A stretch of DNA of 55,365 bases from Clostridia bacterium (lineage in GTDB: Bacteria > Bacillota > Clostridia > Christensenellales > QALW01): NCBI GenBank assembly GCA_017502165.1, contig JAFVVO010000022.1, positions 1-55,365 of the forward strand, given 5' to 3'. Positions 13,832-18,538 of the stretch are shown here, one piece after another. Position numbers and translations under genes: made by a program. The notes below the pieces were generated by a model. That model searched no databases, had not been told where the DNA came from, and was given only the letters and a program-made list of their open reading frames with translations. Within the stretch, counting starts at the first letter, position 1; every line of letters begins with the position of its first letter.

Positions 13832-14760
13832 TATATAGCAAAGCTTGAAAAAGAGTATGCAAAACTGTTAGGGGAAAGCGCAAACGTAGCCAAAAATGAA
13901 AAAACCACCGGGGAAGGTGGAAAGTATTCTTGGAAAAACGATAGTAAAGGGAATAAATATTGGCATATAGATACTAATAAAGATATTTTCAAAGGCTTGA
14001 CAACAATATCACAACTTCAAAAAGCGGCATACAATTATGTATTGGGGATGCGCGATACGGGGGTTGTAATTGATGCTATTGATGGAAAAACAATATCCTT
14101 TATAAGATTGAGCGCAGAAGAATTTGCGTGGGGAAAGAAAAGCAAAGACCTTCTAAAAGACTCTCCCGAAATATTTGCTCAAAAAATGCGTTTAATACCA
14201 AGCATTCAAGATTTAGCGAAAAATGCCAATATAAATTGGCATAGTTCGGATTTCAAAGACCACAAATTGTTCAAGGAAAAAGGTTTTGAAAATTTTAGAG
14301 GTAGGGTTGGCATAGAAAATGTTATTTTTAACTTTATTATTCGTGCGGGCAAGACAAAATTTGGAGATGTGTTTTATGATATAAATTTAGAGGTTGACCA
14401 AATCCTACCTCGCGCAAAAAACGCTTCAGGAATAAAAGGGTCAACCTCCTCAAAAACAGTATATTCGAATCTCAAAAAAATGTCAACAAAAAACTATCAA
14501 TAACCCCTGCAACACGTAAAAAAGCCGCAAAAGAGCTTCAGGAAATCGTAAACCTTTCGGAAGGGGATGCAAGCAAAAATAAAGCACCTAAATGGTTTAC
14601 GAGCAGAGGGCTCCAATTGCCCAAGCTGGTTCAAACCATATTAGATGCTAAAAAGAGCATATCAGTTCGCCGATGCTAAAAGCCGCGACGTAACGTCCGA
14701 AACCGAGACAGATATTGCTCCTACCAAAATGTTACCACAAACAAAACAATCTGTCAACGA
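13832..14760 (+). pseudogene. Decayed fragment of a phage/plasmid polyvalent protein (LPD3-like region)
   Basis: An open frame without a start codon runs from about 13832 to 14503 and continues past 13997, where the longest ATG/GTG/TTG-initiated stretch begins. It contains KYWHIDTNKDIFKGL, AAYNYVLGMRDTG, FIRLSAEEFAWG, GRVGIENVIFNFIIRAGK and FYDINLEVD. These recall the large-polyvalent-protein-associated domain LPD3 found in long multi-domain proteins of phages and conjugative elements. Two more protein-like pieces follow: one in frame 1 (14503-14679, e.g. KAPKWFTSRGLQLPKL) and one back in frame 2 (about 14657-14760, e.g. SRDVTSETETDIAPTKM). Neither has its own start. No integrase, portal or att site is visible nearby, so this is a remnant. 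Family assignment is from memory and uncertain. Confidence 0.65.
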
Positions 14761-14761
14761 T

Positions 14762-15520
14762 TTACGAAATTACTTCTATTCCTGCGCTTGATAATTCTTC
14801 TGTAAGCTCCTTATCCAAGCCTTTGTTGGTTACAATGTAGTCGGCAATGGAAATATCGGAAATTTTAACGAATGCCTTGTGCCTGAATTTTGAAAAGTCT
14901 GCGGCAATAATGCGTGTTTCAGACTGTTCAATCATAATTCTGTCAACGTCCGTTTCCTTATCGTAATAGGTGGTAAAGCCGTTTTCAATGTCAATGCCGT
15001 CAACAGACAGAATAAGCTTGTCGGCGTGATATTTCTTTAATTGCTCAACGGAATCGGGGCCAAAGGAAAACTGATATTTTGTGTTAATTGAACCGCCAAC
15101 CAAAACTACGTTATAATTAGGGTTGCTGGACGCTTCAAGGGCAATAGAAATCGAGTTTGTAACTATATTGAGATTGTAATCTGCAGGGAATTTTCTGAAG
15201 GTCAATAGGGTAGTGGTGCCGGAATTAAGCATAATAGTGTCGTCAGGTTTAATCAACCTGGCGATTTTTTCTGCAATATCCACCTTTTGCGTCTGGTTGG
15301 CTTCAAGGCGCTGATTAAGATTCATACTGTAGTAAGGTTTGTAGGAAGAAATTGCACCGCCGTGGATACGTGTTAAAAGCCCCTTGCCCTCTAAATCTGC
15401 AAGGTCAGTTCTCACCGTTACCTCGGAAACGTTAAAAAGCTTGCTCAGCTCGCTTACCTTTACACTTCCGTTTTTCTGAACAAACCCTAAAATTTGCTGT
15501 TTTCTTTCGTCTGAATTCAT
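14762..15520 (-). CDS. DeoR/GlpR family transcriptional regulator
   Basis: 252 residues. The N-terminal DeoR helix-turn-helix (VSELSKLFNVSEVTVRTDLADLEGKGLLTRIHGGA) is followed by the sugar-phosphate-binding DeoR C-terminal domain, with the conserved NSGTTT and the D-G-I-D segment. DeoR proteins usually repress sugar-use operons and are released by a phosphorylated pathway intermediate. It is divergent from the TIM-SIS-YjbQ-FSA operon, and its predicted promoter is embedded in a phased repeat array. It is therefore the likely autoregulated repressor of that operon. Confidence 0.92.
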   Translation of the reverse strand: MNSDERKQQILGFVQKNGSVKVSELSKLFNVSEVTVRTDLADLEGKGLLTRIHGGAISSYKPYYSMNLNQRLEANQTQKVDIAEKIARLIKPDDTIMLNSGTTTLLTFRKFPADYNLNIVTNSISIALEASSNPNYNVVLVGGSINTKYQFSFGPDSVEQLKKYHADKLILSVDGIDIENGFTTYYDKETDVDRIMIEQSETRIIAADFSKFRHKAFVKISDISIADYIVTNKGLDKELTEELSSAGIEVIS

Positions 15521-15538
15521 ATAAATACCTCACAGTTG

Positions 15539-15638
15539 CGTTTTGATAAAAATATTTTCGGTTCACTTTCGTTTTAGTATATCACACTTACGTTTTGATG
15601 TCAATAATATGCGTTTTCGCAAGAAAAACTTTCGATTT
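15539..15638. promoter_or_regulatory. Phased CGTTTT operator-like array
   Basis: CGTTTT occurs at 15539, 15570, 15591 and 15612, and a variant CGATTT at 15633. The last four are exactly 21 bp apart, about two helical turns, so they present the same DNA face. Several are preceded by CTTT or CTTA. Two copies overlap the predicted deoR promoter. DeoR-family operators are often such direct repeats; binding by the adjacent regulator is inferred. Confidence 0.6.
15576..15604 (-). promoter_or_regulatory. Promoter of the deoR-type gene
   Basis: On the minus strand a perfect TTGACA (15599-15604) and TATACT (15576-15581) are separated by 17 bases. One CGTTTT repeat lies between the boxes and another just downstream of the -10, a layout that fits autorepression. 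Confidence 0.7.
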
Positions 15639-15690
15639 GCTTTTGAAAAGAAAAAAACAATAAGTAAAAAGCAAAAAAGGGAAAAATTCA

Positions 15691-15719
15691 TTGACATTTT
15701 GGGTAGATTATTGTATTCT
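15691..15719 (+). promoter_or_regulatory. Promoter of the TIM-SIS-YjbQ-FSA operon
   Basis: TTGACA (15691-15696) and TATTCT (15714-15719) are 17 bases apart, about 65 bases upstream of the first start codon. The CGTTTT array lies just upstream. Confidence 0.7.
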
Positions 15720-15782
15720 ATTATCATAGAAACAAAGGGGAATTAAGTCAGTTCCCAACAAAAAATAAAAGGAGAAAATGTT

Positions 15783-16481
15783 ATGTATAAAGGCTTAAAA
15801 ATTAAACCTCCGTTTTTCGAAATCGGACCTAAAGCGTATCTTTACGGAAAAAAGATGCTTCAGCTTGCTCAGGTAATTGATAAGGTTGCAATGAAGTATG
15901 ACGTTGACGTTATCGTAACACCGCAGTACACTGATATTAAGCTGCTTGCAGATAACACAGAGCGTATTTTGGTTTTTGCTCAGCATATGGATTATCTTCC
16001 CGTTGGCCGCGGCCTTGGAAGCGTTCTTCCCGAAGCTGTTAAGGCGGCAGGTGCGGTAGGCGTAATGCTTAACCATGCAGAAAAGCCCTTAACTATGGAA
16101 GAAATTGAAAGAACTATCGAGCGTGCCGACGAGGTTGGCTTGGGCACCATCGTTTGTGCAAACACCGTTGAGGACGTTAAGACAATTGCCAAAATGTCAC
16201 CCAACCTTATCGTTGCAGAGCCTACCGATTTAATCGGTACCGGCCAGACCAGCGACAGTAACTACGTTATTGAAACCATTAAGACTGTTCGTGAAATCAA
16301 TCCCGATATTATGGTGCTTCAGGGCGCAGGTATTTCCAACGGACAAGACGTTTATAATACCATCAAATTAGGCGCTCAGGCAACGGGCTCCACAAGCGGT
16401 ATCATTAAGGCGGCAGACCCCTACGCAATGGTAGAAGAAATGCTTTCAAATCTTCGCAGAGCATGGGACGAAATGCAGTAA
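15783..16481 (+). CDS. Triosephosphate isomerase-like sugar-phosphate isomerase (archaeal-type)
   Basis: 232 residues, the length of archaeal TIM and shorter than the 250 or so of bacterial TpiA. Catalytic His is in MLNHAEKPLT and catalytic Glu in VAEPTDLIGTG. GAGISNGQDV forms the phosphate-binding loop. The Lys is retained in IGPKAY, but the usual Asn of N-x-K is Gly. The C-terminal phosphate loop reads GSTSGIIKAADP rather than LLASGV. These changes and the operon setting suggest a substrate other than glyceraldehyde 3-phosphate/DHAP, for example a tetrose or pentose phosphate. It cannot be excluded that it supplies housekeeping TIM activity. AAGGAG precedes the ATG; first gene of the operon. 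Confidence 0.85.
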   Translation: MYKGLKIKPPFFEIGPKAYLYGKKMLQLAQVIDKVAMKYDVDVIVTPQYTDIKLLADNTERILVFAQHMDYLPVGRGLGSVLPEAVKAAGAVGVMLNHAEKPLTMEEIERTIERADEVGLGTIVCANTVEDVKTIAKMSPNLIVAEPTDLIGTGQTSDSNYVIETIKTVREINPDIMVLQGAGISNGQDVYNTIKLGAQATGSTSGIIKAADPYAMVEEMLSNLRRAWDEMQ

Positions 16482-16490
16482 GGAGTTTTT

Positions 16491-17084
16491 ATGAACAGCG
16501 AAGCATTAAAACAGGCAAAAGCGGCTTATAAAATCGAAAGCGAATGTATCAGCGAAATGCTTAATTATTTCGATGAGGAAGCGTATTCCGAGGCGGTTGA
16601 GCTTTTGAAAAATGCCGAAAGAATAGGCACCTGCGGTTGCGGACACAGCGGAATCCTTTGCCAGCATTTTGCGCATCTGCTCTGCTGCATTGAGCAGCCT
16701 GCAAGATTTATATCTCCTGCCGAAGCCGTACACGGCGCAACGGGCTTTTTGCAGGAAGGCGACGTAATGGTATTTGCTTCCCGCGGCGGAAAAACCAAGG
16801 AGCTTTTACCTATTATCGACATTTGCAAAAAGAAAAACGTTAAGATTATTTCTATTACCGAAAATCTGGAATCACCTCTTGCACAAAATGCAGACGTAGT
16901 GCTTAAGCAATACGTTAACCGTGAAACAGATAAGTACAACTGTCAGGGTACAACCTCATCAACGTCCTTGTGCGTGATTTTCCACGTGCTTCAGACGGCG
17001 CTTATTGAGGAAACTGACTTCCAAAATGAAAAATTTGCCACTATTCACCCCGGTGGAGCAGTAGGCGAAAGATTAAATAAATAA
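16491..17084 (+). CDS. SIS-domain phosphosugar isomerase (KpsF/GutQ/PHI-like)
   Basis: 197 residues consisting of a single SIS domain: GTCGCGHSGILCQHFAHLL at the start, the Ser/Gly-rich phosphate loop FASRGGKTKEL, and the C-terminal IHPGGAVGERL typical of the KpsF/GutQ branch. Unlike arabinose-5-phosphate isomerases it has no CBS domains, so it is closer in layout to 6-phospho-3-hexuloisomerase. It probably interconverts an aldose and a ketose phosphate. It starts nine bases after the TIM-like gene, with AAGGAG. Confidence 0.85.
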   Translation: MNSEALKQAKAAYKIESECISEMLNYFDEEAYSEAVELLKNAERIGTCGCGHSGILCQHFAHLLCCIEQPARFISPAEAVHGATGFLQEGDVMVFASRGGKTKELLPIIDICKKKNVKIISITENLESPLAQNADVVLKQYVNRETDKYNCQGTTSSTSLCVIFHVLQTALIEETDFQNEKFATIHPGGAVGERLNK

Positions 17085-17104
17085 TTTTTTAGGAGGAATA
17101 AAAA

Positions 17105-17725
17105 ATGGAATTCAAAGTATTTCAGAAGGAATTAGAATTACAGTCAAGAGGCTGGATTCCCACATTCCACGACATTTCAAAGGAAATCAACGAGATCGTT
17201 GAGGCATCAGGCATTAAAAACGGTACAGTAAGCATCGTTTCTCACCATACCACCTGCTCCGTAATGGTTCAGGAATGCTCACACGATATTGATTCATTCG
17301 ACCTTGAGTATCTTCAGCACGACCTTCTTGACATTATGCGCAAGATGATCCCTGACTTTGCAGAAGAACATCAGTACCGTCATCCCGGTCCTATCCACGC
17401 TCAGTACGGCAGATACGTTGACGAGCCCGGTGACTATTCAAGTATGAACACCGACGGTCACTTAAGAAGCTGCTTCTTCGGCAGAAGCGAAACCATGACC
17501 ATTAAAGACGGTGTTGTTGACGGCGGTAAGTTTGCTCACGTTTACTTCATCGACTGGGACCACGTTCTTGCCCGTCGCAGACAGGTTAACGTAACCGTTA
17601 TGGGTACCACCGAGGACGTAGGCGACAGAAAGTGGAACGACGGCAAGGTTATTGACACCAAGCACAAGTTCACTGAAGAAGAAAAGGCTTACGACATTCA
17701 CTACGACCTTCAGTTAAAGAGATAA
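17105..17725 (+). CDS. Long YjbQ/UPF0047 family protein
   Basis: 206 residues; typical YjbQ proteins have about 130-140. The family core is recognisable: VSHHTTCSVMVQE near the N terminus, then DGHLRSCFFGRSETMTIKDG, and FIDWDHVLARRRQVNVTVMG at the end of the fold. Extra sequence lies between the two core parts (including HPGPIHAQYGRYVD) and as a charged C-terminal tail. YjbQ proteins can replace ThiE weakly as thiamine-phosphate synthases, but their true role is unsettled. Conserved His residues suggest a metal or phosphate site. Its place between two isomerases and an aldolase points to sugar-phosphate chemistry here. AGGAGG precedes the ATG. Confidence 0.85.
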   Translation: MEFKVFQKELELQSRGWIPTFHDISKEINEIVEASGIKNGTVSIVSHHTTCSVMVQECSHDIDSFDLEYLQHDLLDIMRKMIPDFAEEHQYRHPGPIHAQYGRYVDEPGDYSSMNTDGHLRSCFFGRSETMTIKDGVVDGGKFAHVYFIDWDHVLARRRQVNVTVMGTTEDVGDRKWNDGKVIDTKHKFTEEEKAYDIHYDLQLKR

Positions 17726-17750
17726 TTTAAGCTTATAAATTATCAGGTGC

Positions 17751-17839
17751 GTCAAGAAATTGACGGAAAATTGAATTTCTATGATGCGCTTTTTCTGCTT
17801 TGAAAGAGCGCATCTGTTCTTTGACGGAATTTTCCGTCA
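17751..17839 (+). promoter_or_regulatory. Structured intergenic element with competing hairpins
   Basis: Between yjbQ and the transaldolase gene several pairings compete. GTCAA-gaaa-TTGAC (17751-17764). AGAAATT/AATTTCT (17755-17761 / 17774-17780). A long-range 12-bp pairing (17761-17772 / 17828-17839) encloses a 13-bp hairpin (17783-17795 / 17802-17814). A local palindrome TGACGGAA-TT-TTCCGTCA (17822-17839) lies 4 bases before the AAGGAG of the next gene. The local palindrome and the long-range helix share strands and so are mutually exclusive. The pattern fits an attenuator, translation control, or an RNA-processing site. Confidence 0.55.
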
Positions 17840-17854
17840 CAATAAGGAGTTAGT

Positions 17855-18538
17855 ATGAATTATTTAATTGATAGCGGAAATCTTGAGGAAATCAAGTATG
17901 CTAATGAATTCTTTCCTATTGTGGGCGTAACTACAAATCCCACGTTGGTTGCAAGAGAGAATATGGATTTTAGAAAGCTGTTCACTTCTATCCGCGAAAT
18001 TATCGGACCTGACAAAATGCTCCACGTGCAGACTACAGCAACGAAAGCGGAGCAGATTGTGGAAGAGGCAGTAGCGTTAAAGAAGCTTTTAGGAGATAAT
18101 TTCTTTATTAAAATTCCTATTAGTGAAGAAGGATTAAAGGCAACTCGCAAGCTGAAAGAACAAGGAATAGGCGTTACAATGACTGCGATTTTCGCACCTC
18201 AGCAGGCGCTTATTGCCGCAAAAGCAGGGGCGGATTTTGTTGCACCATACGTAAAGCGTCTTGATAACATTTCGGCTGACGGCGGTGTGCAAACCGTTGC
18301 GGATATCGTTAATTTGTTTAACATTTATTCTCTCGATTACCAGGTGCTTGCCGCAAGCTTTACAACAAGCTACGAGCTGCATAAGGTGGCTCTTACCGGC
18401 GCCCATAACGCAACTATTTCGGCAAAGCTGTTAAAGGCGGCAATAACTCATTCAATGACCGAAAACGCCATTGCAGGCTTTGAAAAGGATTGGAAGAGCG
18501 TCTACGGAGATAAAACGGTTCTTGATTTCGTGAAATAG
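17855..18538 (+). CDS. Fructose-6-phosphate aldolase / transaldolase-like (FSA/TalC type)
   Basis: 227 residues, the compact FSA/TalC length. The N terminus has GVTTNPTLV. The Schiff-base Lys lies in FFIKIPISEEGL, and GVTMTAIFAPQQA and FVAPYVKRLDN follow. Enzymes of this group cleave or form ketose phosphates using dihydroxyacetone or glyceraldehyde 3-phosphate. As the last gene of the DeoR-controlled operon it is the probable C-C bond-cleaving step. AAGGAG precedes the ATG; a terminator follows. Confidence 0.92.
   Translation: MNYLIDSGNLEEIKYANEFFPIVGVTTNPTLVARENMDFRKLFTSIREIIGPDKMLHVQTTATKAEQIVEEAVALKKLLGDNFFIKIPISEEGLKATRKLKEQGIGVTMTAIFAPQQALIAAKAGADFVAPYVKRLDNISADGGVQTVADIVNLFNIYSLDYQVLAASFTTSYELHKVALTGAHNATISAKLLKAAITHSMTENAIAGFEKDWKSVYGDKTVLDFVK

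Follow-up and report, generated by a model that had tools for sequence, protein, structure and literature searches.

A set of four genes in a gut-dwelling member of the Clostridia (GTDB order Christensenellales; NCBI GenBank assembly GCA_017502165.1) encodes an archaeal-type protein resembling triose-phosphate isomerase (TIM), a sugar-phosphate isomerase with a SIS domain, a long YjbQ protein and a class I aldolase of the fructose 6-phosphate aldolase (FSA) type, with a divergently transcribed gene for a DeoR-family repressor beside it. The five genes occupy positions 14762-18538 of the window, the 55,365-nucleotide stretch of contig JAFVVO010000022.1 that was analysed. It is proposed, with a probability of about 0.5, that this operon encodes the lower segment of an inducible pathway that breaks down a rare sugar or amino sugar. 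At the level of sequence, the proposal draws on the gene set, its conservation, its catalytic residues, operator-like repeats and a patchy, accessory distribution, and the set is best regarded as a variant form of sugar-catabolic operon, in which there is a real chance that the chemistry of YjbQ is new.

Gene content, conservation and distribution

All five open reading frames are present with plausible starts in the window genome (1.83 Mb in 44 contigs, 96% complete), and the family assignments, made by comparing Pfam and NCBIfam/PRK/TIGR profile scores with each model's own cut-off, uphold the original prediction of a DeoR repressor divergent from TIM-like, SIS, YjbQ and FSA genes. Genomic context was compared across 80 homologous loci of public genomes together with 24 additional stretches of genome sequence and several regions of plasmids, with neighbour counts referring to 84 distinct loci that have flanks. 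In these, YjbQ was found near the TIM-like gene in 79 loci, SIS in 63, an FGGY kinase in 53, a FucI/AraA-like isomerase in 36 and FSA in 30, and YjbQ remained nearby in 12/12 representatives after the TIM-like proteins were clustered at 60% identity, so the earlier view of YjbQ as integral to the set is borne out. The conservation expected among relatives holds for gene content but not for gene order, as 30 same-strand orders were observed, the commonest being TIM-SIS-YjbQ-FGGY-FucI-FSA (11 loci); the retention of content through repeated reshuffling is strong evidence for a shared function.

The absence of an adjacent kinase, on which the original prediction remarked, is true of the window but not of its relatives, whose operons include genes for an FGGY kinase and for a FucI/AraA-like isomerase. 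Because the commonest full operon includes the FGGY kinase and FucI-like genes, the window copy looks reduced; these two genes sit between YjbQ and FSA in locus L005 and others, and are missing from that place in the window. An orthologue of the kinase, up to 55% identical to operon kinases, is encoded in the window genome on contig C20 (~14172-15596). Transcribed divergently from it are a ceramidase-like and a NagA-like gene, the latter with a product 60-68% identical to operon-adjacent copies in L030, L078, L082 and L036. The genome yielded no FucI-like homologue. The ceramidase-like gene on C20 (L088:7605-8956, minus strand) is split over two reading frames, through either misassembly or decay of the gene. 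Within a few kb of the C20 kinase lie genes for oxidoreductase-like and sugar-isomerase-like TIM-barrel proteins (L088:1-1645), which resemble a further sugar pathway.

Few genomes carry the TIM-like gene, and its distribution is patchy: it occurs in 12/398 genomes of the phylum and 10/297 of the order (the window genome included in each), and it is absent from both same-genus genomes examined. The only TAL_FSA-family gene of the window genome is the one in the operon, TAL_FSA is likewise missing from four genus and family relatives that have no TIM-like gene, and among 30 members of the order TAL_FSA was present in 9/10 carriers of the TIM-like gene versus 2/20 non-carriers, a contrast inflated by kinship among the carriers. 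This tracking of the operon argues against FSA as part of core metabolism and agrees with the earlier supposition that it is not the ordinary transaldolase of the organism. Just upstream of the operon, at 13997-14503 of the window, an open reading frame encodes LPD3, one of the polyvalent-protein domains that typify mobile elements, and is possibly mobile-element debris.

Properties of the encoded enzymes

The TIM-like gene (15783-16481, plus strand) encodes a ketose/aldose phosphate isomerase of archaeal type (PRK04302, 207.6 bits, cut-off 132), for which the nearest solved structure is an archaeal TIM (1hg3). The catalytic residues of TIM are kept in 108 (Lys), 99 (His) and 108 (Glu) of 109 sequences, and all three are present in the window protein. 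By comparison, the substrate-contacting Asn that stands before the Lys is changed to Gly in 94 of these sequences, and the Thr of loop 3 to Leu in 89; loss of the Asn would suit a ketose bigger than dihydroxyacetone phosphate. As had been anticipated, this gene is not the ordinary TIM of the organism, since a separate TIM (250 bits), split over contigs C38 and C22, is encoded elsewhere in the genome. Neither the check on conservation among relatives nor the check for ordinary housekeeping genes refuted the original prediction.

The SIS gene (16491-17084, plus strand; PF01380) encodes a sugar-phosphate isomerase with a single SIS domain and no CBS domain, whose closest solved structures are 3fxa and the CBS-less 3etn. 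Its nearest profile is KpsF/GutQ, which it matches at 116 bits, below a cut-off of 203.7 bits set for a model that spans a longer protein. With KdsD as the reference for residue numbering (and E. coli FSA for the aldolase), the window protein keeps three of the four residues Lys59, Glu111, Glu152 and His193, which we take to have functional roles in KdsD, with Lys59 replaced by His; the equivalents of the two Glu and the His are kept in 79-82 of 83 SIS sequences, and the Lys59 position is His in 62. A strict identity as arabinose 5-phosphate isomerase or as 6-phospho-3-hexuloisomerase (HxlB; TIGR03127, 54 bits versus a cut-off of 160) was rejected for this protein, both scores being under cut-off.

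The aldolase gene (17855-18538, plus strand) encodes a class I enzyme of the TAL_FSA family (160 bits, above cut-off), which scores 205 bits against the TIGR00875 model, below its cut-off of 246. The window protein contains equivalents of Lys85 (the Schiff-base residue), Gln59, Tyr131, Arg134 and Ser166, and the Lys/Gln/Tyr signature of an aldolase, rather than the Glu and Phe of transaldolase, was found in 37/39 FSA homologues. Assignment as a plain transaldolase was rejected on the strength of the Gln/Tyr signature and the patchy distribution.

YjbQ proteins, which are widespread in bacteria and archaea and have several solved structures, have no known natural reaction. The YjbQ gene of the operon (17105-17725, plus strand) encodes a divergent member of this family (UPF0047) of 206 amino acids, which is well recognised by PF01894 (83.9 bits, cut-off 27) and falls just under the cut-off of TIGR00149 (62.2 versus 67.75 bits). 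Operon-type YjbQ proteins, which score 84-97 bits versus 105-151 for the remaining YjbQ genes of the genomes compared, thus form a separate subfamily. They share the fold and the core His/Thr/Asp/Asn motifs of canonical proteins such as E. coli YjbQ and TM0723, but differ by a long insert, by an invariant Cys51 within an HTTC motif, and by the lack, in an alignment, of the G-x-W motif seen in YjbQ proteins of the Protein Data Bank; Glu57, Asp73, Tyr91, Asn115 and His119 are also invariant in 99 sequences. A structure model of modest confidence (pLDDT 67), with low confidence in the active-site loop, had 1vmj as its best Foldseek match (E 5e-12), and 17/17 matches at E <= 0.001 belonged to the YjbQ family. 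Two loci, L138:7452-9199 and L140:7477-9094, have a copy of YjbQ on both sides of the TIM-like gene. One published account reports that overexpression of YjbQ suppresses E. coli pdxB.

Regulatory sequences of the operon

The repressor gene (14762-15520, minus strand) is assigned to the DeoR family by PF00455 and PF08220, both well above cut-off, its best NCBIfam match is AgaR (199 bits, below the cut-off of 260), and 32/84 loci have a DeoR gene close to the TIM-like gene. The 262-bp region between deoR and the TIM-like gene contains four in-phase direct repeats of TNCGTTTT (15537..15617, with starts at 15537, 15568, 15589 and 15610), which are spaced by 31, 21 and 21 bp, or about two or three helical turns, and are probable DeoR operators. 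At least three copies of this word were found in 0/3000 dinucleotide shuffles of the divergent promoter, and among relatives L044 has two copies of it at a spacing of 21 bp, and L006 also has two. A putative deoR promoter on the minus strand (TTGACA-17-TATACT, 15576..15604, with 11/12 consensus matches and an extended TG) sits within the repeats, so self-repression of deoR is predicted as probable. The putative operon promoter lies on the plus strand at 15691..15719 (TTGACA-17-TATTCT, 10/12 consensus matches), and a TTGACN...TATAAT-like promoter was found at the equivalent place before the TIM-like gene in L006, L029, L043, L044 and L057. Control of the C20 kinase by DeoR through TNCGTTTT was considered and rejected, there being no repeat cluster upstream of that gene.

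The original prediction described a tight unit behind one promoter, and this description fits the first three enzyme genes, where the gaps are 9 bp (TIM-like to SIS) and 20 bp (SIS to YjbQ), but not the last, as FSA follows after 129 bp. This spacer (17726-17854, plus strand) is predicted to fold into three hairpins (folding z-score -4.7; 0/200 shuffles), one of which scored as terminator-like, so FSA may differ in expression and uniform co-expression of the four genes is not assured. The spacer had no match in Rfam, which led to rejection of a known RNA element at this site. Where YjbQ and FSA are direct neighbours elsewhere, the spacers are unrelated in sequence and ~100-113 bp long (L009 8225-8327 and L043 7987-8098), and those two are apparently hairpin-forming when judged by eye.

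Candidate pathways and related systems

The TIM and SIS families catalyse enediol isomerisations, and FSA cleaves fructose 6-phosphate and is able to form arabinose 5-phosphate by joining glycolaldehyde to glyceraldehyde 3-phosphate. In the catabolic pathway that we propose, an FGGY kinase (that of contig C20 in the window genome) would make a ketose phosphate, the TIM-like, SIS and YjbQ proteins would shift its carbonyl along the carbon chain through enediol isomerisations, and the FSA-type aldolase would split the resulting phosphosugar by retro-aldol cleavage. The cleavage could convert a ketohexose 6-phosphate to D-glyceraldehyde 3-phosphate and dihydroxyacetone, or arabinose 5-phosphate to D-glyceraldehyde 3-phosphate and glycolaldehyde. 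Acting from the four phased repeats, DeoR would repress the deoR promoter and probably also the operon until a pathway intermediate released it. We infer the substrate, the order and direction of the steps, and the action of YjbQ as an isomerase or epimerase; the hexulose version would explain the three isomerases as three steps, the pentulose version would end at ribulose 5-phosphate and arabinose 5-phosphate, and the data do not choose between them.

In a more specific and unlikely form of this proposal, the TIM-like, YjbQ and SIS proteins would act as a carbonyl relay that moves the keto group of a ketose 1-phosphate stepwise away from the phosphate-bearing end until it reaches the opposite one (5 to 4, 4 to 3 and 3 to 2 in a hexulose), thereby erasing all but one stereocentre. 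Nearly any rare ketose could then become a D-ketose 6-phosphate, or 5-phosphate, usable by central enzymes or FSA, and YjbQ would represent a new class of mid-chain sugar-phosphate isomerase.

The module has variants elsewhere. Type II loci, from Lacticaseibacillus paracasei, Enterococcus and other Bacillota, contain a phosphotransferase system (PTS) or glucitol-type PTS, a class II aldolase and TIM-YjbQ, while type III loci combine a fructose-type PTS with TIM-YjbQ-SIS-Rpe, the SIS protein scoring above the cut-off for 6-phospho-3-hexuloisomerase and the epimerase above that for ribulose-phosphate 3-epimerase. In the distant loci L108 and L094 the SIS protein exceeds the 6-phospho-3-hexuloisomerase cut-off (207.7 and 208.4 versus 160 bits), and hexulose-phosphate synthase was not seen among the listed neighbours of the loci with HxlB-type SIS and Rpe, so this distant set appears to isomerise keto-sugar phosphates rather than to fix formaldehyde, which speaks for the proposed pathway. 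The combination of an HxlB-type isomerase, Rpe and YjbQ (L094:5980-7752 and L108:6201-7964) is found on common Enterococcus faecium plasmids and elsewhere. A type IV locus on a Shinella plasmid contains a short-chain dehydrogenase/reductase, an epimerase-like protein, TIM, YjbQ and an FGGY kinase, and the type V locus L107 has an ABC transporter, an FGGY kinase, a dehydrogenase, TIM, YjbQ and SIS. At L131:3997-6535, D-allulose 6-phosphate 3-epimerase, a ROK-type kinase and D-psicose 3-epimerase lie beside a TIM-YjbQ-SIS-DeoR module. That the TIM-like and YjbQ genes are joined to differing uptake and activation modules suggests that the pair is a portable core.

Several of these features weigh against the proposed catabolic pathway. 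FSA is absent from 54/84 loci and SIS from 21/84, so not every step can be obligatory; in type II loci the partner of TIM-YjbQ is a class II aldolase for dihydroxyacetone phosphate and the TIM Asn is mostly present, which may mean that the module has more than one function; and E. faecium plasmids carry PTS-YjbQ-Rpe-HxlB with no adjacent TIM-like gene. In addition, no Dak1-type dihydroxyacetone kinase was found in the window genome, which means that dihydroxyacetone would need another kinase and mildly favours glycolaldehyde as the second product.

Other explanations account for parts of these data. The association of the TIM-YjbQ pair with many uptake and kinase modules (PTS, ABC, FGGY, ROK/allulose) would also be expected if the isomerases recycled toxic or dead-end sugar phosphates produced by promiscuous kinases, a form of metabolite repair, instead of serving one growth substrate; such a reverse or salvage role is improbable, given that a kinase and a sugar isomerase are usually in the same operon, which often has its own DeoR, as would be anticipated for catabolism. 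An amino-sugar route, in which an N-acylated amino sugar loses its acyl group to ceramidase-like and NagA-like amidohydrolases, so freeing the amine, a NagB-like protein deaminates the product, and the remaining steps fall to the kinase, isomerases and FSA, is a minority possibility. It is suggested by the NagA-like, NagB-like or ceramidase-like genes that flank the module in 16/104 loci, by the two such genes that adjoin the C20 kinase, and by the tendency of these loci, like the window genome, to lack a FucI-like isomerase (3/40 versus 13/64), but this last exclusivity is not significant (Fisher P ~0.1), most loci have none of these genes, the NagB-like protein is far under NagB cut-offs, and the C20 ceramidase-like gene is divided between two frames. 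A chance cluster of a second TIM and a pentose phosphate transaldolase serving ordinary central metabolism is disfavoured as very unlikely: the kept catalytic triad of TIM and the presence of a sole TAL_FSA gene are compatible with it, but the separate TIM, the tie between TAL_FSA and the carriers of the TIM-like gene, the aldolase signature and the conserved gene set argue against it.

The proposed pathway has partial counterparts among known systems. In the erythritol/threitol pathway of Brucella and rhizobia, EryH (TIM-like) and then EryI (RpiB) isomerise erythrulose phosphate in series. Both systems use a TIM-like protein and a second isomerase on a ketose phosphate, an FGGY kinase and a dedicated repressor, but here SIS and YjbQ replace RpiB, an aldolase is added, the TIM is archaeal-type rather than bacterial-type, and the repressor is DeoR instead of EryD. 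The HxlA/HxlB system of the ribulose monophosphate pathway also has a CBS-less SIS protein, and distant relatives of the window SIS score above the HxlB cut-off, whereas the window protein does not (54/160 bits) and no HxlA was seen nearby. FSA and arabinose 5-phosphate isomerase have been used in synthetic designs for glycolaldehyde assimilation and photorespiration bypass, which resemble the pairing here of an FSA-type aldolase with a KdsD/GutQ-like SIS protein; the present case differs as a natural operon, presumably working in the cleavage direction, with a SIS protein that lacks the Lys59 of KdsD. The operons of relatives share a FucI-like isomerase and a TAL_FSA protein with the sulfo-TAL operon for sulfoquinovose (SftI and SF transaldolase), but have a kinase, TIM-like, SIS and YjbQ proteins as extras, and the sulfo-TAL pathway itself was rejected because the SftI score was 39 versus 700 bits.

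In agreement with the original prediction, which knew of no described pathway with this set, no description of it was found in literature on YjbQ/UPF0047 (judged by titles and abstracts), COG0432, TIM-plus-aldolase PTS clusters, HxlB-Rpe clusters and FSA physiology, which is weak evidence as subscription journals were thinly covered. The finding that a divergent YjbQ is nearly always beside a TIM-like isomerase, amid kinases, sugar isomerases and aldolases, places this protein family in a concrete metabolic context and narrows its candidate substrates to a few. If three isomerases do act in series, the operon would represent a route, not described before, by which gut bacteria feed rare sugars into central metabolism.

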